A DNA stretch of 64,000 nt from Sedimentisphaerales bacterium (GTDB taxonomy: Bacteria > Planctomycetota > Phycisphaerae > Sedimentisphaerales > Anaerobacaceae), in the NCBI GenBank assembly GCA_016932095.1, contig JAFGDN010000018.1, positions 1-64,000 on the forward strand, read 5' to 3'. Shown in pieces: positions 5,624-55,752 of this stretch. Position numbers and translations under genes: made by a program. The notes beneath the pieces are model-generated. The model was not told the origin of the DNA, made no database searches, and saw nothing but the letters and a program-made list of their open reading frames with translations. Numbering within the stretch: the first letter of the stretch is position 1; every line of letters begins with the position of its first letter.

Positions 5624-5756
5624 CACCCCGTAAAAATTATCCGTTAAAAAGTGCCCAGTATCCGGCATAGAGAATCAATCATTATATCTCGTTTGTTTAT
5701 GTTATAATCATCCTCCGTGATATATGTCAAAATTCAAAAATGGAAAGGAAAGAAAA

Positions 5757-7163
5757 ATGCAAAAGACAACGTTTGGAGTTGTCGTTGGAAACAGGGGATT
5801 CTTTCCCGATGTTCTGGCAAAACAGGGGCGAAAAGACATTCTCGACATGCTGAAAACCAATGGCTGCGGGACAGTTACGCTTTCGATGCAGGATACCAAG
5901 TACGGCTCGGTCGAGACGTTCGAGGACGCAAAGAAGTGCGCCGGACTGTTCGCTAAGAACAGCGAAAAAATCGACGGGATAATCGTTACGCTGCCCGATT
6001 TCGGGGATGAAAAAGGAGCGGCGGAAGCGATTAAACGCTGCGGGCTTGACGTGCCGGTGCTGATACAGGCCGAACCCGATGAAACGGGTAAAATGAATAT
6101 GGGGCAAAGGCGGGACTCGTTCTGCGGAAAAATAAGCGTTTGCGATAACCTGCGGCAGGCGGGGATACCTTATACCCTGACGAAACTGCATACTGAGGCG
6201 GTTGGGTCGGCGCAATTCAGGAAGGACCTCGATGATTTCGCTTCGGTTTGCAGGATTGTCAAGGGGCTAAGAAACGCCAGGTTCGGGGCAATCGGGGCAA
6301 GGACGGGGGCGTTTAATACGGTGCGCTTCAGCGAGAAAATTTTAGAGCTGGCCGGCATCGCGGTTGAGACAATTGACTTGTCTGAAATTTTAGGAAGGGT
6401 CGCCCGCCTTGACGACACCGAAAGGAACGTGAAAAAGAAACTGGGCGATATACAAAAATACGCCTCGACCGAATCGATTCCGGCCGGGTCGCTGATGAAA
6501 ATGGCGAAGTTCGGATACGTGATTGACAAGTGGGTCAAAGATAATGGCCTGAACGGCACGGCCATTCAGTGCTGGACGAGTTTGGAGGAATTTTTCGGGA
6601 TAGTGCCCTGCACGCTGATGAGTATGATGAGCGAGTCGCTATTACCAAGCGCCTGCGAGGTTGACGTTACGGGTCTATTGGCGATGTATATTTTACAGCT
6701 TGCGTCGGGGACGCCCAGCGCGCTATTGGACTGGAACAATAATTACGCCAATGACGCGGACAAATGCGTGCTGTTTCACTGCAGCAACCTGCCGAAATCG
6801 TTTTTCAAGTCGGCAAAAATGGACTTCCAGGAAATCATCGCGGGCTCCGTAGGCAAGGACAACACATACGGAACGATAGTCGGAAGAATCGCGGCTGGAC
6901 CTGCGACATTTTTCAGAACTTCGACCGACGACGCGGCTGGAGTCATCAGCACATACGTCGGCGAAGGGGAGTTCACAAACGACAAGCTTGACACTTTCGG
7001 CGGATACGGCGTAATGAAAATACCGAACCTTCAGAACCTGATGCGGTTCATCTGCACGATGGGTTTCGAGCACCACGTGGCAATGAATATGTCGCAAAAG
7101 GCAAACGCCATAGCGGAGGCGGTGAGTAATTATCTCGGCTGGGAGCTTTATTACCACAAATGA
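5757..7163 (+). CDS. L-fucose/L-arabinose isomerase-family protein
   Basis: Resembles the L-fucose isomerase/L-arabinose isomerase fold family: an N-terminal Rossmann-like half (VVVGNRGFFP, GIIVTLPDFGDE) and a C-terminal half with CWTSLEEFFGIVPC, the SALLDWNNNY segment and a closing substrate-binding region. These enzymes interconvert aldose and ketose with a divalent metal. Beside araB and araD, with no araA in view, it may make L-ribulose from L-arabinose, although an araA outside the window cannot be excluded. I chose ATG 5757 (468 aa) because GGAAAGGAAAG lies just before it; an in-frame ATG at 5724 lacks a ribosome binding site. Exact substrate is uncertain. Confidence 0.72.
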   Translation: MQKTTFGVVVGNRGFFPDVLAKQGRKDILDMLKTNGCGTVTLSMQDTKYGSVETFEDAKKCAGLFAKNSEKIDGIIVTLPDFGDEKGAAEAIKRCGLDVPVLIQAEPDETGKMNMGQRRDSFCGKISVCDNLRQAGIPYTLTKLHTEAVGSAQFRKDLDDFASVCRIVKGLRNARFGAIGARTGAFNTVRFSEKILELAGIAVETIDLSEILGRVARLDDTERNVKKKLGDIQKYASTESIPAGSLMKMAKFGYVIDKWVKDNGLNGTAIQCWTSLEEFFGIVPCTLMSMMSESLLPSACEVDVTGLLAMYILQLASGTPSALLDWNNNYANDADKCVLFHCSNLPKSFFKSAKMDFQEIIAGSVGKDNTYGTIVGRIAAGPATFFRTSTDDAAGVISTYVGEGEFTNDKLDTFGGYGVMKIPNLQNLMRFICTMGFEHHVAMNMSQKANAIAEAVSNYLGWELYYHK

Positions 7164-44834: not shown

Positions 44835-47800
44835 CTATGGCCCAATACTGTCTCTTGTGGCAGATATGACGACCGGTGGTAATACATAACACCCGCACAC
44901 CGGATCAAAATAGAACCCAGAAGTCTCAGTATCAAGTACGTGAAGCCCAGGAGAAGGTGCGTGAGCCTCGAGAGGTGAAAGAACCAAGAAAACCGTGCCG
45001 ATGACGCCCCCGACGAAAGATCCAGTAACTTTTAGGGCTTTAAGACCCCATTCAAGGCCTCTTTGAATGCCTTCTTCAATGGCTTGTCCCTTTAACCAAT
45101 CCAACCAGGGAGGCAACATCCCGAATGGATCTGCAAAAGAATAAGGATTGTTGCCTACGTATGCGTATCCATTGCCGACGTTAAAGGGATCTGCCCATAT
45201 TCCAATGGTGTCGCGAGTTGTGAACCTGCCGGAGCGCGGGTCGAGATATCTGGTACGGTAGTAGTAAAGGCCAGTTTCGCTGTCGTAGCGTCTGCCGGTG
45301 AAGTAGTAGGGATTACCGATAGCAGTGCCGGCTATAGGAACACCCGCGCCATTAAAAAACTCCGGCTTACCATAGTCCTGATATTCATAGCGTTCTACTG
45401 CATTTCCTGCGACATCGGTGACAGCCATAACGTTGAAGAGCTCATCTGTGTGGTAATAGTAATCATTAGCGCCTCGCTGCATATTGAGGACCTCGTCGAT
45501 GTAGTTGCCATAGACGTAGGTTGCCTGCGTAACGCCGGCGCCATTCCGTTCCTCAATGACCTGCCAGCCGTCGTAGAAGTAACGCGTTGTCTGCGGTGTC
45601 CCTTCGGAATCGACGATTCTTTCTATTCGCCTGCCGAAACAGTCATAGGAGTAGGTGTGAACAATTGGCGGCCAAAAGTTGGCCGGCTCAAACCTGACCA
45701 TCCGGTTGAGGTAGTCGTAGGTAAGGCCCTTCTGTGTCGAAAGGCCATTGTCGATGGTATTCAGATTACCATTCTTGTCATAGAGTCGGCTGTCGAAAGA
45801 GGTCGTGGTGTACTGGTTCACCTGTTCATCGGCCGGTTCAGGGGTGGCACTATCCATAGTGTAAATGCCGGGGTCGGGCGAGCCGGTAACGCTCGTGCGG
45901 TTGCCGATGCCATCGAGCGAATAACCTGTATCGCGGACAACAGCCGGCACAGTGTTGGTAACCGTCGTATGAACCAGGCGGTCGATTGAATCGTAGGTAT
46001 AATCGTGCGTAAGCTGTGGCCCGCCGGCGCGAATGTCCTTTCGCTGGGTCTTATTGTAGGTCGCGTCCCAGGTGTATGTGCGGTCATCGATAATGGTGGG
46101 CGTACCTGCCGGGTCGCGTGTATGCGTCGTTTGGGTAATACGTCGGATGTTATCATAAGTATAAGTGGTTCTCGTGTTGTTGACGTAATCGCGCCGTTCA
46201 GGTCTGCGTGGGCCAATGTAGTTATAGCTTGCTATGGTTCCGCCCGCGTCGGAAATTGTCTTTATGCGGTTTAATGCATCGTAGGTGTAGTTGACGGCCC
46301 GCCCACTGGGATACGTACAGGAGAGCTTGTTGCCCAACCCGTCATAGCTGCTTGTCGTAGTTACTCCATTGAGAGTTTCTTGGATTATGTTCGAGAGAGA
46401 ATCGTAGCTGCGGGCGACAACGGAATAGTCATTTCCGGCACCGACCAAATTCAACGAATTATCGTACTGATAATACTCAAAGGTCGTCTGGTCGGATACT
46501 CCTGCTCCAGGCGTGATATATTTTTCTATAAGGCGGTTCAAATCGTCATACGTATAGTCAACCACACTGCCGGCAGCATCGATAGTTTGAATCAGATTGT
46601 CGTGAACATCATAGCTGCCCTGCCTGCTGGTGCTATCGGCATAAGTTGTTTTAATCAGGCGATTGAGCGGGTCATACTCATAGGTAGTTATGTTGCACTT
46701 GTCGTCGGTCAGACTGGTCAGCCGGGAGGTATCGTCCCAGGTTTGGCTGATTTTAATATCATCCGAATCACTGGGATTGGCGCCGTCACCATCCATATCA
46801 CGAACGATCCAAGTTAACCGATTGAGGCCGTCGTACGCAGAGCGGATTTCGGTATTCCTGGCATCAATCATCCTCGTGCGATTATCTCGCGAGTCGTAGG
46901 CGTACTGAGTAGTGTTGCCCGCGTTATCTGTTATCCCGGTAAGGCGGTTCAGATTATCGTACTTGTAGGTCGTAACAAAGGTCTCGTCGGGACCACCCAG
47001 ATCGGATTTCTCCAATACCGTAACGGCAATGACGTTTGAGTTTTCATCATAGCTGTAAGTTATCTTATTGCCCTTAGCGTCGATAACAACACTTAGACGG
47101 TTAGCAGTATCGTATTCATAGTGCGTTTCGTTGCCATTATCATCGGTAACCTTTGTAACTTGGGAATTGTCATTGTATTCGTACCCGGTGGTTACCTTGC
47201 CGTCGCCGATGTCAAAAGTGGTACTAACGTCAAAGAAGTCCACTTCAGTTTCGACAAGGCGGTTCAGTTCGTCGTATTTGTAGCTTGTTGCATTTAGGCG
47301 GTCGTGTGGTGGTAGGAAGATGTCTCCGATGAAATAGTCGTTGCATCCGGGACCGAAGGTTGTATGGATACGGTTACCTATGGCATCGTATGTGTTTGTA
47401 GTGACGTAATTCATAGGGCGATTCGTTTTGACGAGTTGGCCACAGACATATTTATAGGTGGTGACTACTACATCCCACCCTCCATCATGTACCTTGACAC
47501 AGTTGCCGACGCCATCGTACTCAAAGTATATCGCGGAGTTATTTTGATTGCCCTCGGCACGAATGACCCACAAGGGCAGGGTCAGCTCGTCATAAAAGGC
47601 CCCTATGGTATTTGTCGGCTGATTGCCGTTCGTTGCCTCCCCGAAGCGAATCAAGGTTCGATTGCAGTTTTCGTCGTATTCATACTCGGTTACAACGGAA
47701 TGGGTTTCATTGACCTCCGCCGTAACGCGGACCAGATTGTTCAGGGTATCATACTCGTAGGTGGTGGTGAAGTACTCGTTGGCCTGTAAGTTGCCTTGGT

Positions 47801-50504
47801 CGTCGATGTTCTCAATGTCCACACGGACCACATTGTTGTTTTTATCATAGAAGGTGTACTTTTTGTAGCACACACCGCTTCCGTCGGTGACCTCTGGTGA
47901 AATCTCGCAGACAACCTGGTTGAGCTGATTGTGGATATACCGCCAGTTGCTACCATTTGGATCAATTAGACGGATAGTGTTTCCCACCGCATCATATTCG
48001 TACATGGTGGTCAGAGCAAGGTTGTTAGCGTCAACGATGGTCTCCTTCAAATAGCTATAATTAGGGTCGTTGCAGTCGGTGTAGTAGGTATACACATCGC
48101 GCCGTCGATGTCCGCTGCCATTATCGGGCAGGATGCTTACGGTCCTTTGGCCGTATGCGTTATATTGCCATTCCTGAACAATATTTGCGTCGGGGGCCTC
48201 TCTGACATACGTCGTCCGGATGCGATTTCCGTTCGGATCATAATCGTGCAGAGTCTCGTTTCTTCTCGGGTCAACATGGCGGGTCGCGAAGCTGCATTCG
48301 CCGCCAAATTCGGTGCCATATTCAAACTTTTCGATTATAGGCGAAATCATCCTGATATCATCGATGTAAATGGTACCTGAGCCGCCGGGTACCGGAGCGG
48401 CTCTATCACCCAAACCGATATAAACTTTGCTCACAGCCGTTAAGTCTACGCCGCCATCAGCGAAATCTTGCAATACAAAAGCAAAGAGGAACCAGTCGTC
48501 ATCCGGAATAGGATTCCACCGCGAATCCGGCGGGCATTCGCATAAATTTAAGAGGCAGCACAGGACCCCTGGCGGAACCCAAACAAGGGTGCCGGTCGAA
48601 TCCTCCAGACCCACGTATATCTCATTAGTATCGGTACCTGTTCCAACCCGGAACGACACCTCCAATACTTCGGCACCGCTGGCAGCCCAATCCTGTGGCA
48701 CAGAATACGTGCCGACAGTCTCAGAATAATACGGCGGGTCGATATTGTTATAATCAAAGATCATCGCCTGCTTGCCTTGGTTAACCGGCTCACAAGGGTC
48801 AACTGCAAGATCAACCAGTGAACCAGTACCGTTCACTAAGCCATCAATCCATGTATCATATATCAAATTGTTACTGTCGTTGTAGGACTCAAAATCATCC
48901 ACGATAGCGGTGGATTCCATTGGCCCGGGATGCCGAAATTTGGCGCGCAGATTACCGCGTGACCGCTGCGAAGCATTGGGGTCGAGGTCGGCCTCATAGA
49001 CATTTACAACGTAGTTACCGTTCGGATAATCTATACGCGTAACTAAGGAATCACTATTGTATTCGTACCGGGTCTCGAAGTAGGCGGGGTCATCGGCCCG
49101 CAGCTTGTTGACCGGCGGATTGGTATTAGGGTCGAGGTATGTAGGCGAGTTGGGGTCGGCTCGACCGGTGTACTGCCGAACCATTACCAGCCGATTCCTG
49201 TCGTCGAAGAAATGTGATGCTACATTACCCACACGGTCATTAGTAACCGTCTTGACAACAGCAAAATTGTTACCCGCATCAGGCGCCTGCGGCACGTATG
49301 TGATATCGATTATATCGTTCGGTTCACCCCAAATCTGTCGAATGACGTGGTCGAACTCCGGATCATTGGAGTCGGTAGTTGGTGAGTAAACGTTTTGCAG
49401 AAATGTCCGGCCATTAGGGTCAGTAATAGTCAACAGATTGTGATTGAGCCGTTCATCACCAAGACCGTGAGAATACGTGTATGTGGTGGTCTTTCCGTCG
49501 GGATAGTCATTGCCGGTTAGCGTGCCGGTAACCGCGGGCGTTGTGACGGATTTGAGGTCGCTGAGAGAACCCCCGGGTGTATTACCGTCATAATACTGAT
49601 ACGAGACGGTTCTGCCGGCAAAATCTGTTATGAACGCAACACTGCCGTCAGCGTCGTAAAGGATGTCAATCTCCCGGCCGAGTGTGTCGCGAACCGTTGC
49701 CAGCTTGCCCATGTCGTCCAATCGATAATCAAACGAAATCGCATTACCGTTGCGGTCCGTTATCTGCTTGATTTTGCCTTGCGAACTGCTGCCGTCAAAC
49801 CGATTAAATATCCATGTCGTCTTGTCAGGAAACGTCAGTGAAAAGCTAAGGTCCGGATTTCTCGACAGTACCCTGAAAAGCCCATCGGTGACCCAGGTGC
49901 CGTCTGCCTGATGCCTGTAGAGGTCTCGTCGGCCGCTGCCGTCGTGCACGATAAAATCCCGCCCGGCCGGCTCGATATAAATATTATAGGAATAGTCCCA
50001 GTTATTGCCGGTGCTTGTATTCGACCCTGTCCGCGAGCGATAGGTACGCGACCAGATGAAATCGAGCCCTCGGCCGGGAATCCTTAAATCCACCACTGTT
50101 TCACGATACTCGCCGGTAGCCGGATTGACGCCGTATGTGGGATTAGCCGGTGAGTCGAGTGCGTTTGGCGGTTCATATAAATTCGCTTCTGCAATATATG
50201 GCGGCAGCGCCTCACAATCCGGATTAGCAGTGTCCGTACACAACAACCACTGAGTTACGAACTCATTCAAATCGTTAATGTCAACTATGCCGTCGCCTCC
50301 CGGCGTATAAATATCGACCCATTCACAGTCACCGGGTTCATCACAGCTTTCCAACCAGTACGAAGCAAGGCGGGCAAAGTCCCTGAAATTAACGTAGCAG
50401 TCCTCATCGAAGTCGGAAAGCAAAAACGGTTCACATCCTCCTGAAGCTATTTCAGCGCATACCACCAAAACCAAACAACTCAGTAACACCAGCTTCTTAC
50501 ACAT
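44835..50504 (-). CDS. Exported RHS/YD-repeat protein with dockerin-like start
   Basis: A very large secreted protein (1889 residues). Signal peptide (about 1-23), a dockerin-like module (about 27-85: DFDEDCYVNFRDFARLASYW, then GDGIVDINDLNEFVTQW), the opening DUF6531-like block (YGVNPATGEYRETVVDLRIPG in part), many YD repeats of the form Y-x-Y-D-x-x-N-R-L, and the RHS core end RYLDPRSGRFTTRDTIG (about 1750). A jelly-roll-like insert (about 530-715, starting VDDFESYND) interrupts the repeats. The last about 100 residues after GNNPYSFADPFG are the variable tip, with a hydrophobic stretch but no toxin I recognise. Start set by AGGAGG 6 bases before ATG. RHS shells encapsulate their own C-terminal tip. 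Confidence 0.9.
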   Translation of the reverse strand: MCKKLVLLSCLVLVVCAEIASGGCEPFLLSDFDEDCYVNFRDFARLASYWLESCDEPGDCEWVDIYTPGGDGIVDINDLNEFVTQWLLCTDTANPDCEALPPYIAEANLYEPPNALDSPANPTYGVNPATGEYRETVVDLRIPGRGLDFIWSRTYRSRTGSNTSTGNNWDYSYNIYIEPAGRDFIVHDGSGRRDLYRHQADGTWVTDGLFRVLSRNPDLSFSLTFPDKTTWIFNRFDGSSSQGKIKQITDRNGNAISFDYRLDDMGKLATVRDTLGREIDILYDADGSVAFITDFAGRTVSYQYYDGNTPGGSLSDLKSVTTPAVTGTLTGNDYPDGKTTTYTYSHGLGDERLNHNLLTITDPNGRTFLQNVYSPTTDSNDPEFDHVIRQIWGEPNDIIDITYVPQAPDAGNNFAVVKTVTNDRVGNVASHFFDDRNRLVMVRQYTGRADPNSPTYLDPNTNPPVNKLRADDPAYFETRYEYNSDSLVTRIDYPNGNYVVNVYEADLDPNASQRSRGNLRAKFRHPGPMESTAIVDDFESYNDSNNLIYDTWIDGLVNGTGSLVDLAVDPCEPVNQGKQAMIFDYNNIDPPYYSETVGTYSVPQDWAASGAEVLEVSFRVGTGTDTNEIYVGLEDSTGTLVWVPPGVLCCLLNLCECPPDSRWNPIPDDDWFLFAFVLQDFADGGVDLTAVSKVYIGLGDRAAPVPGGSGTIYIDDIRMISPIIEKFEYGTEFGGECSFATRHVDPRRNETLHDYDPNGNRIRTTYVREAPDANIVQEWQYNAYGQRTVSILPDNGSGHRRRDVYTYYTDCNDPNYSYLKETIVDANNLALTTMYEYDAVGNTIRLIDPNGSNWRYIHNQLNQVVCEISPEVTDGSGVCYKKYTFYDKNNNVVRVDIENIDDQGNLQANEYFTTTYEYDTLNNLVRVTAEVNETHSVVTEYEYDENCNRTLIRFGEATNGNQPTNTIGAFYDELTLPLWVIRAEGNQNNSAIYFEYDGVGNCVKVHDGGWDVVVTTYKYVCGQLVKTNRPMNYVTTNTYDAIGNRIHTTFGPGCNDYFIGDIFLPPHDRLNATSYKYDELNRLVETEVDFFDVSTTFDIGDGKVTTGYEYNDNSQVTKVTDDNGNETHYEYDTANRLSVVIDAKGNKITYSYDENSNVIAVTVLEKSDLGGPDETFVTTYKYDNLNRLTGITDNAGNTTQYAYDSRDNRTRMIDARNTEIRSAYDGLNRLTWIVRDMDGDGANPSDSDDIKISQTWDDTSRLTSLTDDKCNITTYEYDPLNRLIKTTYADSTSRQGSYDVHDNLIQTIDAAGSVVDYTYDDLNRLIEKYITPGAGVSDQTTFEYYQYDNSLNLVGAGNDYSVVARSYDSLSNIIQETLNGVTTTSSYDGLGNKLSCTYPSGRAVNYTYDALNRIKTISDAGGTIASYNYIGPRRPERRDYVNNTRTTYTYDNIRRITQTTHTRDPAGTPTIIDDRTYTWDATYNKTQRKDIRAGGPQLTHDYTYDSIDRLVHTTVTNTVPAVVRDTGYSLDGIGNRTSVTGSPDPGIYTMDSATPEPADEQVNQYTTTSFDSRLYDKNGNLNTIDNGLSTQKGLTYDYLNRMVRFEPANFWPPIVHTYSYDCFGRRIERIVDSEGTPQTTRYFYDGWQVIEERNGAGVTQATYVYGNYIDEVLNMQRGANDYYYHTDELFNVMAVTDVAGNAVERYEYQDYGKPEFFNGAGVPIAGTAIGNPYYFTGRRYDSETGLYYYRTRYLDPRSGRFTTRDTIGIWADPFNVGNGYAYVGNNPYSFADPFGMLPPWLDWLKGQAIEEGIQRGLEWGLKALKVTGSFVGGVIGTVFLVLSPLEAHAPSPGLHVLDTETSGFYFDPVCGCYVLPPVVISATRDSIGP

Positions 50505-50654
50505 CTTACTCCTCCTTTCATAAATTAACCGATGAAATTTGCAATGCGGGGGCAAAGCCGGAACACTGGCTAAATGAAAATCTAAATGAAGCTCTTCTCC
50601 CGCTCCTCATCCGCCGGTATGGGCCGGGTGTAAATTTTTCCATCAACAGTCAGA

Positions 50655-50957: not shown

Positions 50958-51302
50958 TTAATACCAGACCGTAACTATCAGGTTCGGCTCTGTTTTCTTC
51001 GCCTGTATCTCGCCCACAACAGCATTGGTCATCTTTATACTGACCCCGGGATTATCTTTAAGCCACGTGCTTACCTGCTCGTCGAGAAAATCAATCGCAC
51101 CGACGTGCAGCTTCGCAAAAAACGTCTTGCATCCCGTAATCCGGTCCGGCCAACTCACCTTCTTGCCCGTATCCCGCACTACAGGCCGTTCTTCCGGCTC
51201 AACCGCTGCCTCCGGCTCGCTGCCGCCCCCGAGATTCAGCGGCGAATGTGATATTTCCATCGGCTTATCCCCTCCTTGTTCTTCTATTCCAAAATCTGCC
51301 AT
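50958..51302 (-). CDS. Conserved-looking hypothetical protein, 114 aa
   Basis: A 114-residue soluble protein. The first about 50 residues are Gly/Glu/Pro-rich and probably disordered. The second half looks folded and repeats a simple amphipathic pattern: ITGCKTFFAKLHVGAIDFLD, then WLKDNPGVSIKMTNAVVGE, and it ends IVTVWY. GGAGG lies 7 bases before the ATG, so translation is well supported. No catalytic residues stand out. It is transcribed away from rimO. Function unknown. Confidence 0.6.
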   Translation of the reverse strand: MADFGIEEQGGDKPMEISHSPLNLGGGSEPEAAVEPEERPVVRDTGKKVSWPDRITGCKTFFAKLHVGAIDFLDEQVSTWLKDNPGVSIKMTNAVVGEIQAKKTEPNLIVTVWY

Positions 51303-52822: not shown

Positions 52823-55444
52823 TTAGACGGCTCGCGTGTGTTGATAATACCACTGAACTTGTTGCGGGGTAGATTCCTCGTCAAGGTTCTCCCGACCTAA
52901 TGCCGACAGGCCGGCAGACGCTGAAAGAATCTCTTTTAGTTTCCATTGATTATCCAACCTGCCCATCGTGATGTATTGTTCAAACGGTGTTACATACTCA
53001 TCCTGCCGAAGAATAACGCCGTTGCGGCGCACAACCCTCTGGGCATGCGCGCGAATCCTGGCTATAAATTCGTCTTTCGCTTTATCCGCGTAGTTTTGAA
53101 TCAGAATCAGCTCCGCTTTGCGGCAGCAAAGATTGCGAAATTCGATTGTAACCCTGTTTTCCCTGTTTCTCTTATTTCTCTCACGTAAATCTGCCGCAAC
53201 ATCAGGAAAAATCTCCTTTTCCGGAACGTCTGCCTCATTGCCCGATTCCCACGCCGTCATTACTGCAAGAAATACCCTGCGTGTTGTTTCGAGCATAAGC
53301 TGACGGTTCCAGATTTTGTCTGTCTGAACAAGAAAATTAAGCATTCTTTCGATGCGAACTTCCCTTGTCTGAACATTTTTGCCTAACCATGGGCCAACCT
53401 CACCTTCCTTGGACGCCTCCGGGCCGTATATTTGCTTGACGCCGGTATCCGTAAATTGTTCAAAGAAATTTTCGTCCTTCAGAACGTCCGATTCTCTCGT
53501 CTGCTCTATTTCACGCAGCAGCCACGTCTTGTCGAAATATTGGAACGTCCAGAACTCCTGAAACTGCTCGATTTTTCCGTCGCCCCGTAAAAATGCGTTT
53601 TTACGGTCATCAATGTAATAATCACGGGCCTTAGCGGTTATCAACGCTGTGAATTCACGCTGGTTCTCTTTGAATGTGTACCTGACGTTAACCAGGTCGA
53701 TACAGTCAATATGCAAATCGGCAATCACATTGATTTCGCGATTGCGAATCATCCCCTGAAGCTGAACACAGTGATTCCTGTAGATATCGGGCATCATCAG
53801 CGCTTTCATCGGTTCGTAATTGCGCGCCTGCCAGCATTCCTGAAGCTTAAGAAACGTGATTTCGGCCTGTTTCCGCAGGGCTTCCGGAGCTATGGTTGGG
53901 TCCTGCCTTGAAAGAAATTCAAGAAGTTTTAACGTCTTGCCGCTTTTCCTTTCTATGACCGACCGGCTGTAAACAAAGTCCAGATTTTCATCTTCCCCGC
54001 CCGATCCTCGAAATTTCTGAATCAACCAAATCAAGATAAAAACAAACCATACAAGTATAAATAAAACAACAGAAAGCGGATCGGCTTTGCCGCTGCGTCC
54101 GCCTCTATGAGAATGACCCCCTCCAAAACCTCCGCCTTTATTATGAACCACGACGCCATCAGCAATAAACGTATGAGGCCAGCCAACAGTAAGATTATAA
54201 ACTTCTTCTTGTTGCGTGGATACTGCTGAAACACGGTTGTCAATTTTGGCCGGGATGACTTTATTATCAGAATATAGCAGGATTCCGTCCCCAGGTTTAA
54301 GTTTGCCGGCAACGCAAAACCCGCCACTGAACATACAAATCGGATGCTCAGCCGTTGTCCTTAAACATTTCGACCCGGCCCAAATGCTTATTACATAATC
54401 TTTCGTTCTGTGCGTCTCCCGAACTATCGCCGATACAATCCTGCCGTTTCCCGTAATTGCGGTCACTCTATCCCCGGGTCTGATTTTTTCTATCGGTATG
54501 TGACCTTCCGAAGTGCCGATTAAAACACCAGCGGGAAAACATCCTCCGCCGCCCTTGTTATGCACGGCCACGCCGTTGGCAAAGAAAGTATTGGGTTTAT
54601 CCGTTTGAAGGTTGTAAACCTTTGTATTGGCTGTTATTTTCTTGATGCTCTCTATTCGCTGAGAGCTTAAATTCTCCCCATCAAAGGCAAAGATATTATC
54701 ACCTGCCTTTAACACCTCCAGTGTTTTGAAAGTCCCATCACCAACATAAAACGGGTGCTCTGCTGTAACACGCACAATATTTTTTTCCGTCCTGACAATA
54801 CAATACTCATTCACATTATGAGTTATCACTTCCTGCACTGTCGCGATGGTCAGTTCCCCGCTGGCTGTAAACGCCATCAGCCGGTCGCCAGGGCGAATGT
54901 TTGAAATCGGCACAGCCGAACCATCCTCTTTGCGGATGAGTGTATCGGGCAGAAAACAACCCTTGTTGTGGACCACGACCCCATTGGCAAAATAAGTCCC
55001 GCCGGGAGACACAAGCAGGTTATATGCAGACGTTGCAGCCGGGACATTTTTTATCGATTGAATCGCTACATCCCGGATTTCGTTGTCTTCCCCGATATAT
55101 ACTTTGTCTCCGGCCTTAAGAACTCCGGCCATCCGGTATGTCCCTGAATCTATTGCAACAGGATGTTCCTTTGTAACTCGAAGGATGCGACCTTCGAGAG
55201 TCAATTCGTAGTAATAATCGGGCTTTACAGAATATAAATCCTGGACCTTTGATTCTGCTGAGGCACTACCCGATAACGAGATTACCTTATCGCCCGGTTT
55301 TAATTGTTCCACTGCTATACTGCCGGCTGGCGTTAAAATCAAAGTGCCGCCTTCGACACAGCCGCCCCCTCCGCGTGCGTAAACCAAAGATTGTCCCGCC
55401 AGCAGCCATAACAAAGTCACAGGCAGTATCAGGTTCCTCTTCAT
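52823..55444 (-). CDS. Triple Hint (intein-like) - transmembrane - Tim44-like protein
   Basis: An 873-residue exported or membrane protein. Signal peptide (1-23) and a Gly run are followed by three tandem Hint domains. Hint1 runs C29-N160, Hint2 C163-N296, Hint3 C302-N435. Each has the N-terminal Cys, a block B T-x-E-H-P (H94, H230, H367) and the C-terminal V-H-N, so all catalytic positions are present. Each is followed by Lys, not Ser/Thr/Cys, which argues for cleavage rather than splicing. After Hint3 come a Gly/His-rich stretch (GGGFGGGHSHRGG), one transmembrane helix (about 456-477) and two Tim44/NTF2-like domains (about 500-660, 680-850). There is no homing endonuclease. The upstream DUF350 gene is 38 bases away and likely co-transcribed. 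Function unknown. Confidence 0.85.
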   Translation of the reverse strand: MKRNLILPVTLLWLLAGQSLVYARGGGGCVEGGTLILTPAGSIAVEQLKPGDKVISLSGSASAESKVQDLYSVKPDYYYELTLEGRILRVTKEHPVAIDSGTYRMAGVLKAGDKVYIGEDNEIRDVAIQSIKNVPAATSAYNLLVSPGGTYFANGVVVHNKGCFLPDTLIRKEDGSAVPISNIRPGDRLMAFTASGELTIATVQEVITHNVNEYCIVRTEKNIVRVTAEHPFYVGDGTFKTLEVLKAGDNIFAFDGENLSSQRIESIKKITANTKVYNLQTDKPNTFFANGVAVHNKGGGGCFPAGVLIGTSEGHIPIEKIRPGDRVTAITGNGRIVSAIVRETHRTKDYVISIWAGSKCLRTTAEHPICMFSGGFCVAGKLKPGDGILLYSDNKVIPAKIDNRVSAVSTQQEEVYNLTVGWPHTFIADGVVVHNKGGGFGGGHSHRGGRSGKADPLSVVLFILVWFVFILIWLIQKFRGSGGEDENLDFVYSRSVIERKSGKTLKLLEFLSRQDPTIAPEALRKQAEITFLKLQECWQARNYEPMKALMMPDIYRNHCVQLQGMIRNREINVIADLHIDCIDLVNVRYTFKENQREFTALITAKARDYYIDDRKNAFLRGDGKIEQFQEFWTFQYFDKTWLLREIEQTRESDVLKDENFFEQFTDTGVKQIYGPEASKEGEVGPWLGKNVQTREVRIERMLNFLVQTDKIWNRQLMLETTRRVFLAVMTAWESGNEADVPEKEIFPDVAADLRERNKRNRENRVTIEFRNLCCRKAELILIQNYADKAKDEFIARIRAHAQRVVRRNGVILRQDEYVTPFEQYITMGRLDNQWKLKEILSASAGLSALGRENLDEESTPQQVQWYYQHTRAV

Positions 55445-55482: not shown

Positions 55483-55752
55483 TCACGATACCGCAAAAAT
55501 TATCCCGCCTATTATAGCCGCCCCGATTATGATGCTTATGCCGATAATACAGGCGGCGGCTACTCTGCCAAAGTATTGGGCTACGGCTATATTGCCCCGG
55601 GCTATCTCCTTTTCTTCATCAATTCTCGGCGTCAGTTTATCTAACAGTTTTGGGATAACCATTGTCGATGCTGATATGAGGATTATACCGACTACTGCCG
55701 ATATCAAAATAAAAACTGAAGCCCATCCGATATTTACAAAAACGGTTCTCAT
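55483..55752 (-). CDS. DUF350-family small membrane protein
   Basis: An 89-residue protein with two to three transmembrane helices (WASVFILISAVVGIILISA, CIIGISIIIGAAIIGGIIF). The central E-I-A-R-G-N-I-A-V-A motif matches the DUF350 family of unknown function. ATG 55752 follows GAGAGGA at a good distance. It lies immediately upstream of the triple-Hint/Tim44 gene on the same strand and may be its membrane partner. Confidence 0.7.
   Translation of the reverse strand: MRTVFVNIGWASVFILISAVVGIILISASTMVIPKLLDKLTPRIDEEKEIARGNIAVAQYFGRVAAACIIGISIIIGAAIIGGIIFAVS

Follow-up and report, generated by a model that had tools for sequence, protein, structure and literature searches.

Pretoxin HINT domains sit near the C-terminus of their proteins, ahead of a variable toxin domain. 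Reviews assign bacterial intein-like (BIL) domains to non-conserved proteins, where they occupy hypervariable regions (PMC7765530). Those of type A react through a thioester at Cys1 and cleave at a terminal Asn; they give mostly cleavage products, with splicing possible through a freed amine (PMC4031507). The Tetrahymena domain BIL2 is preceded by a conserved RGG (PMC9200820) and splices with a Lys, forming an isopeptide bond (PMC8616854). DUF350 proteins, for their part, are found in PspA envelope-stress operons (PMC11237479). The domains of the locus described here are thus known in kind, but serial, conserved, N-terminal Hints on a Tim44-like protein with a fixed DUF350 partner are new to judge from the open library: the open-licence literature holds no paper that combines "Hint domain" with "Tim44", and none on tandem Hints or on inteins with Tim44, which bears out the remark in an earlier note on this DNA that no described system has this layout.

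The cassette in the window

The window, that is, the whole 64,000-nt stretch of DNA that we analysed, has on its minus strand an intact, stop-free ORF of 873 aa with an ATG start (52823-55444; all coordinates of this gene and its parts refer to the minus strand). By ORF, Pfam and alignment it encodes a signal peptide, three Hints, a Gly-rich run, a transmembrane (TM) helix and two Tim44-like repeats. The predicted signal peptide (residues 1-23; 55376-55444) has a hydrophobic helix at residues 6-19 in the structural model and a putative cleavage site, A23|R24, at an ARGGGG/GRGGGG boundary that is kept in the Hint-Tim44 family and its homologues. It is followed by the N-extein R24-GGGG (55361-55375) and by Hint 1, of type T1 (C29-N160; 54965-55360; Pfam, alignment, trees). 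A Lys-Gly linker (54959-54964) leads to Hint 2, of type T2 (C163-N296; 54557-54958), which is placed by alignment, model and fold match, and a Lys-Gly4 linker (54542-54556; translation, alignment) leads to Hint 3, of type T3 (C302-N435; 54140-54541; Pfam, alignment, trees). The Gly-rich run that begins with K436-GGGFGGG (54080-54139), a low-confidence region of the model and, from its sequence, the predicted N-terminus of the processed Tim44 part, precedes the TM helix (residues 456-480; 54005-54079; a helix in the model, hydropathy 3.14). Tim44-like repeat 1 (residues 512-648; 53501-53911) matches PF04280 and, by Foldseek with the full-length model, yeast Tim44 (3qk9); repeat 2, with approximate limits (about residues 714-840; 52925-53305), is a second Pfam stretch with the repeated helix-strand pattern in the model.

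Pfam reports PT-HINT (4.1e-34) and Hint_2 (4.5e-18) in three stretches each, and Tim44 (PF04280; 9.7e-17; 61.9 bits against a cut-off of 29.6) in two; NCBIfam reports intein_Cterm in three stretches and intein_Nterm in two. With lengths of 132, 134 and 134 aa, the Hints start with Cys and end with Val-His-Asn, and when the three are aligned C1, T63-x-E65-H66-P67 and V-H-N-K-G are invariant. The AlphaFold2 model of the full-length protein (mean pLDDT 71.7) has all-beta Hint folds and matches Hint domains and yeast Tim44 structurally. Hint 2 is modelled confidently (pLDDT 96.1); its top structural match is Tetrahymena BIL2 (query TM 0.88), followed by a Clostridium thermocellum BIL (0.86), and inteins and hedgehog are also among its matches. 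Profile search and structure prediction, the check that the earlier note had proposed, thus recovered both the Hint fold and Tim44. Pfam, NCBIfam, alignment and AlphaFold2 agree with its description of three complete tandem Hints in a Tim44-like membrane protein, with boundaries at C29, N160, C163, N296, C302 and N435, spacers of KG and KGGGG, no homing endonuclease (the units being about 132-134 aa) and Lys at +1, which is found in all 58 Hints of the family. That layout was right; overlooked were the upstream DUF350 gene, Tim44 repeat 2 and the variation in Hint number from one to four.

In 20 of the 23 family members the stretch that follows the TM helix is richer in Lys and Arg than the one that precedes it; the window protein has three such residues before and two after, so that its own charges are not decisive. 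Given this bias and the exported N-terminus, the Tim44 repeats are probably on the cytoplasmic side. The earlier expectation of a new Tim44 N-terminus outside the membrane holds, as a prediction, for the N-terminus itself; the repeats, past the TM helix, are by the family's charge bias probably cytoplasmic.

The partner gene (55483-55752, minus strand; ATG at 55752) lies 38 bp upstream of the Hint-Tim44 gene on the same strand and encodes an 89-aa small membrane protein of the DUF350 (YjfL-like) family (Pfam E 6.5e-7; 29.9 bits, above the cut-off of 26). Every one of the 23 complete family members has a DUF350 gene as its immediate upstream neighbour, on the same strand, and one fragment (L067) also has the gene directly upstream; the copy in L058, at 24.4 bits, falls just below the cut-off. 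A LemA gene adjoins the pair in six loci (L196, L205-L209), and in three others a gene for a short membrane protein follows directly downstream (L058, 3332-3883; L061, 4359-4910; L060, 8003-8710). In the window rimO and pgsA flank the cassette. These two genes are direct neighbours, with about 42 bp between them where measured, in four other genomes that lack the cassette, three from the same genus and one from a different genus of the same taxonomic family; a search of 60 relatives with the whole protein found the cassette in none, three of them giving matches to Hints only. Since it is the whole two-gene cassette that is missing from sister genomes, and not the Hints alone, the DUF350 and Hint-Tim44 genes entered, or were kept, as a unit. 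Near the cassette (44835-50555, minus strand) lies the gene of a 1906-aa exported RHS/YD-repeat protein with, by eye, dockerin-like EF-hand repeats at its start, and upstream of rimO (50958-51302, minus strand) a small protein is encoded that is conserved in three sister genomes (57-63% identity).

Family members, Hint lineages and Hint-less relatives

We scanned 84,980 species genomes with a Hint profile and searched about 1,280 genomes with a Tim44 profile. This added 22 complete proteins whose parts are arranged as in the window protein, for a total of 23 (G571 and L063 are the same protein and were counted once). They come from at least four phyla, Planctomycetota, Verrucomicrobiota, Thermodesulfobacteriota and Nitrospirota, the phylum being that of a named record or of the group that was searched. 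One protein has a single Hint (L199), eleven have two, nine have three and two have four (L205 and L207); checking by profile confirmed these domain counts, except that two shortened Hints were each reported as two pieces. A survey of Tim44-like homologues by Hint number, which the earlier note had suggested, hence finds versions with one, two, three and four Hints and no intact close relative with none. Recurrence in 22 other genomes rules out chance or misassembly. On a tree of the Tim44 part the window protein groups with members from Verrucomicrobiota and Nitrospirota rather than with its own class, which fits horizontal transfer. No relative of the Hint-Tim44 protein was found on viral contigs, and the plasmids searched have just unrelated single Hints; we therefore rejected phage or plasmid cargo.

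Cys1, the Thr and His of block B, and the closing His-Asn are present in all 58 Hints of the 23 proteins, and every Hint has Gly before and Lys-Gly after. Ahead of the first Hint, Arg-Gly4 (columns R24-G28 of the window protein) is invariant in 23 of 23 members, and the spacer between T1 and T2 is exactly Lys-Gly wherever both occur. These catalytic and flanking residues stand out because median pairwise identity within a Hint type is just 44-56% (0.47 for T1, 0.56 for T2 and 0.44 for T3). Lys at +1 is by itself weak evidence, since it also occurs in unrelated Hints, namely in 4 of 17 HN-ended PT-HINT domains sampled without bias in the phylum. At block F:4, 56 of the 58 have Asn in place of the Asp usual in inteins, which helps to couple the two ends; the closest solved bacterial BIL aligns with Asn there too. 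The F:13 His, which aids Asn cyclisation in inteins, is lacking in T1, where 18 of 21 copies have Gly; T2 is mixed and most T3 copies have it, and because the types differ in this way the copies may, as a guess, differ in reaction rate.

Hint trees resolve three lineages by position (T1, T2 and T3/4; Hint 1 of L064 falls beside T1), each of which is its own lineage across phyla. T2 is the core copy, found in every complete member; L196 has two, the product of a recent duplication. T1 copies are the fastest-evolving and in three proteins (L064, L200 and L203) are shortened to 103-113 aa. Because the Hints fall into position-specific lineages, the sequences indicate that the array is old and that gains and losses of copies came later; copy number changes 11 times on the 23-tip Tim44 tree. 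The triplet, which the earlier note had entering an existing Gly-rich linker, is thus no single entry into this gene but belongs to an old family.

No intact close relative of the Tim44 part lacks Hints. The close Hint-free cases are pieces at contig edges (L198 starts at HNKGGG) or L211, a Tim44 copy with a frameshift and a truncated N-terminus that has neither Hints nor DUF350; it is a decaying member of the family and the sole Hint-free close relative whose upstream sequence was examined. Tim44-like proteins further away, with a profile E of about 1e-22 or weaker, have no Hints, and no DUF350 in the flanks examined. By pattern, 100 of 116 Hint-less homologues begin their mature chain with [AGVSP]R(x)GG, a few of these being wrong-frame matches, and the mature start, [A/G]R-(x)-GGG, leads into a Gly-rich run and a TM helix. 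The Hint block interrupts exactly that run (A|R-GGGG-[Hints]-K-GGG-FGGG). Indeed, insertion into an existing Gly-rich linker had been suggested from the window alone, and the Hint-less homologues have the run at the same place.

Single Hints also occur in other proteins. In two exported proteins (L068, ORF 5863-6753; L072, ORF ending at 7089) an N-terminal Hint ending in VHNK lies four residues past a lipobox Cys (LISC-QQSM-C... and LLGC-PRSS-C..., respectively), such that cleavage at Asn would release them from the lipid anchor. Two planctomycete exported proteins (L065, ORF 5791-6816; L066, ORF 5641-6813) have one Hint (VHNKS) right after a hydrophobic N-terminal segment and before a conserved domain of unknown function. 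A Hint within a helicase-like protein (L006, ORF at 36) has Cys at +1 and resembles an ordinary intein.

Proposed processing after export

We propose, at about even chances, that the Hints are removable caps, acting mainly by cleavage, on the Tim44/DUF350 module after export. The second protein of the conserved two-gene cassette, DUF350 plus Hint(1-4)-Tim44, would be made as a precursor; Sec export would place its N-terminal Hint block outside the cytoplasmic membrane, and the TM helix would anchor it with the two Tim44-like repeats remaining on the cytoplasmic side. The Hints, as self-processing domains like type-A BILs, each between Gly(-1) and Lys(+1)-Gly, would fold outside and detach from the anchored protein, mainly through cyclisation of their terminal Asn. 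Every Asn|Lys cut would expose Lys-Gly, and the last would leave K436-GGGFGGG on the anchored Tim44 part. Since Hint-less homologues start with [AGVSP]R(x)GG, such a cut would rebuild an N-terminus similar to the R-x-GGG start that signal peptidase exposes in them. The Hints would thereby act as serial N-terminal caps, possibly tied to the state of the envelope, a link suggested by the DUF350 annotation alone. Cleavage would explain why Lys(+1)-Gly is invariant, why the Hints were inserted where they are and why their number is free to vary. By itself it does not explain why the sequence ahead of Hint 1 is always RGGGG.

That last residue block is what would be expected to be kept if the Hints were instead spliced out one after another, with a thioester between Gly and Cys1, Asn cyclisation and attack by the freed Lys amine (alpha or epsilon) giving RGGGG-KG-KGGGG-KGGGFGGG, a restored Gly-rich linker. 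The earlier note held that splicing needs Ser, Thr or Cys at +1; this nucleophile is indeed missing, but type-A BILs are reported to splice without it through amine attack (PMC4031507), and the top structural match, Tetrahymena BIL2, makes a Lys isopeptide bond (PMC8616854) and has a conserved RGG before it (PMC9200820). All 58 Hints have Gly(-1) and Lys(+1), in agreement with such a reaction, and splicing, too, would remove the Hints and leave a basic-GGG start (RGGGG-KG...), which counts against the cleavage reading. On the other hand, known type-A BILs give mostly cleavage products (PMC4031507), the coupling Asp at F:4 is replaced by Asn, and splicing alone offers no obvious reason why one to four Hints are kept in every intact close relative found. 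Because RGGGG is better explained by splicing, we put cleavage at no more than an even chance and regard splicing as the main alternative, though an unlikely one.

Two further readings are less probable still. The Hints could be extracytoplasmic binding or structural domains in normal life, or react only to a rare trigger; the shortened T1 copies of L064, L200 and L203 suggest weak constraint on the T1 body. Yet all 21 T1 copies, shortened ones included, keep Gly-Cys1, Thr, His and His-Asn-Lys-Gly, as a non-catalytic domain need not, and we consider this reading improbable. A mobile, selfish intein-like element in the Gly-rich linker, already mostly refuted, is the least probable of all: the 11 copy-number changes and the patchy cassette, missing from sister genomes, would suit it, but units of about 132-134 aa have no endonuclease, close relatives offer no intact Hint-free allele, each Hint type is its own lineage across phyla, and what sister genomes miss is the two-gene cassette rather than the Hints. 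An ordinary homing intein was rejected for want of an endonuclease, a +1 nucleophile and an intact empty allele, and a class 1 intein since Lys is at every +1 and every intact close Tim44 relative has Hints (L211 is frameshifted).

We tentatively suggest, as something rather doubtful, a multi-step self-unmasking, in which one to four serial caps would remove themselves outside the membrane and stepwise expose a basic-Gly N-terminus on the Tim44/DUF350 complex, with the number and activity of the Hints setting the timing of activation or reporting the state of the envelope. If so, type-A BIL domains would have a conserved cellular role. They have mainly been described as scattered in variable proteins; here they are fixed, multi-copy and conserved in their catalytic residues, and the natural versions with one, two, three and four Hints form one defined system for asking how they serve the cell. 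The cassette may also yield compact, serial self-cleaving units that function after export.

Comparison with known systems

Bacterial Tim44-like proteins (PF04280) share with the Hint-Tim44 protein a signal peptide, an Arg-Gly-rich mature start, a TM helix and the Tim44 domain, but homologues of the known type have neither the Hint block nor, in the flanks examined, a DUF350 neighbour. The partner shares the DUF350 family with DUF350/YjfL of PspA-linked operons (PMC11237479), whereas no PspA, YjfI or YjfK was identified beside the cassette.

The pretoxin HINT of polymorphic toxins and RHS proteins (PF07591) is the best Pfam family and has the core motifs in common, but the Hints here lie at the mature N-terminus, ahead of a constant Gly-TM-Tim44 part; the C-terminus is a constant Tim44 pair with no variable toxin, which led us to reject toxin delivery. 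A hedgehog Hog domain was likewise rejected, since that is a C-terminal Hint with a sterol-recognition region after it, whereas here N-terminal Hints with a His-Asn end precede Gly-TM-Tim44. The BUBL loci of Tetrahymena (BIL2, PDB 6y75/6tmm) also have more than one BIL per polyprotein and R-G-G before Cys1, and BIL2, in whose splicing Lys acts (PMC8616854), is the structure nearest to Hint 2. BUBL loci are, however, arrays of ubiquitin-like and BIL domains, whereas the Hint-Tim44 protein has no ubiquitin-like Pfam match, has spacers of K-G(n) only, and is bacterial, membrane anchored and predicted to be exported; a polyubiquitin-like locus of this kind was rejected on the missing ubiquitin-like domain.

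By sequence and predicted fold, the Hints are type-A BIL domains. Their best PDB sequence match is the C. thermocellum BIL (2lwy; profile E 3.9e-23), with which they share the Hint fold, Cys1, the block-B Thr/His, the His-Asn end and Asn at F:4, both being without Ser, Thr or Cys at +1 and without an endonuclease. Unlike the BILs of reviews (PMC7765530), they are serial and fixed in place in a conserved host protein with a partner gene, with invariant Gly(-1) and Lys(+1): in place of a hypervariable position in a non-conserved protein, they occupy a constant one in a protein family across four phyla. Because this difference is a trait of distribution and not of chemistry, the reading that we offer is that each Hint may work like a type-A BIL in a new arrangement.
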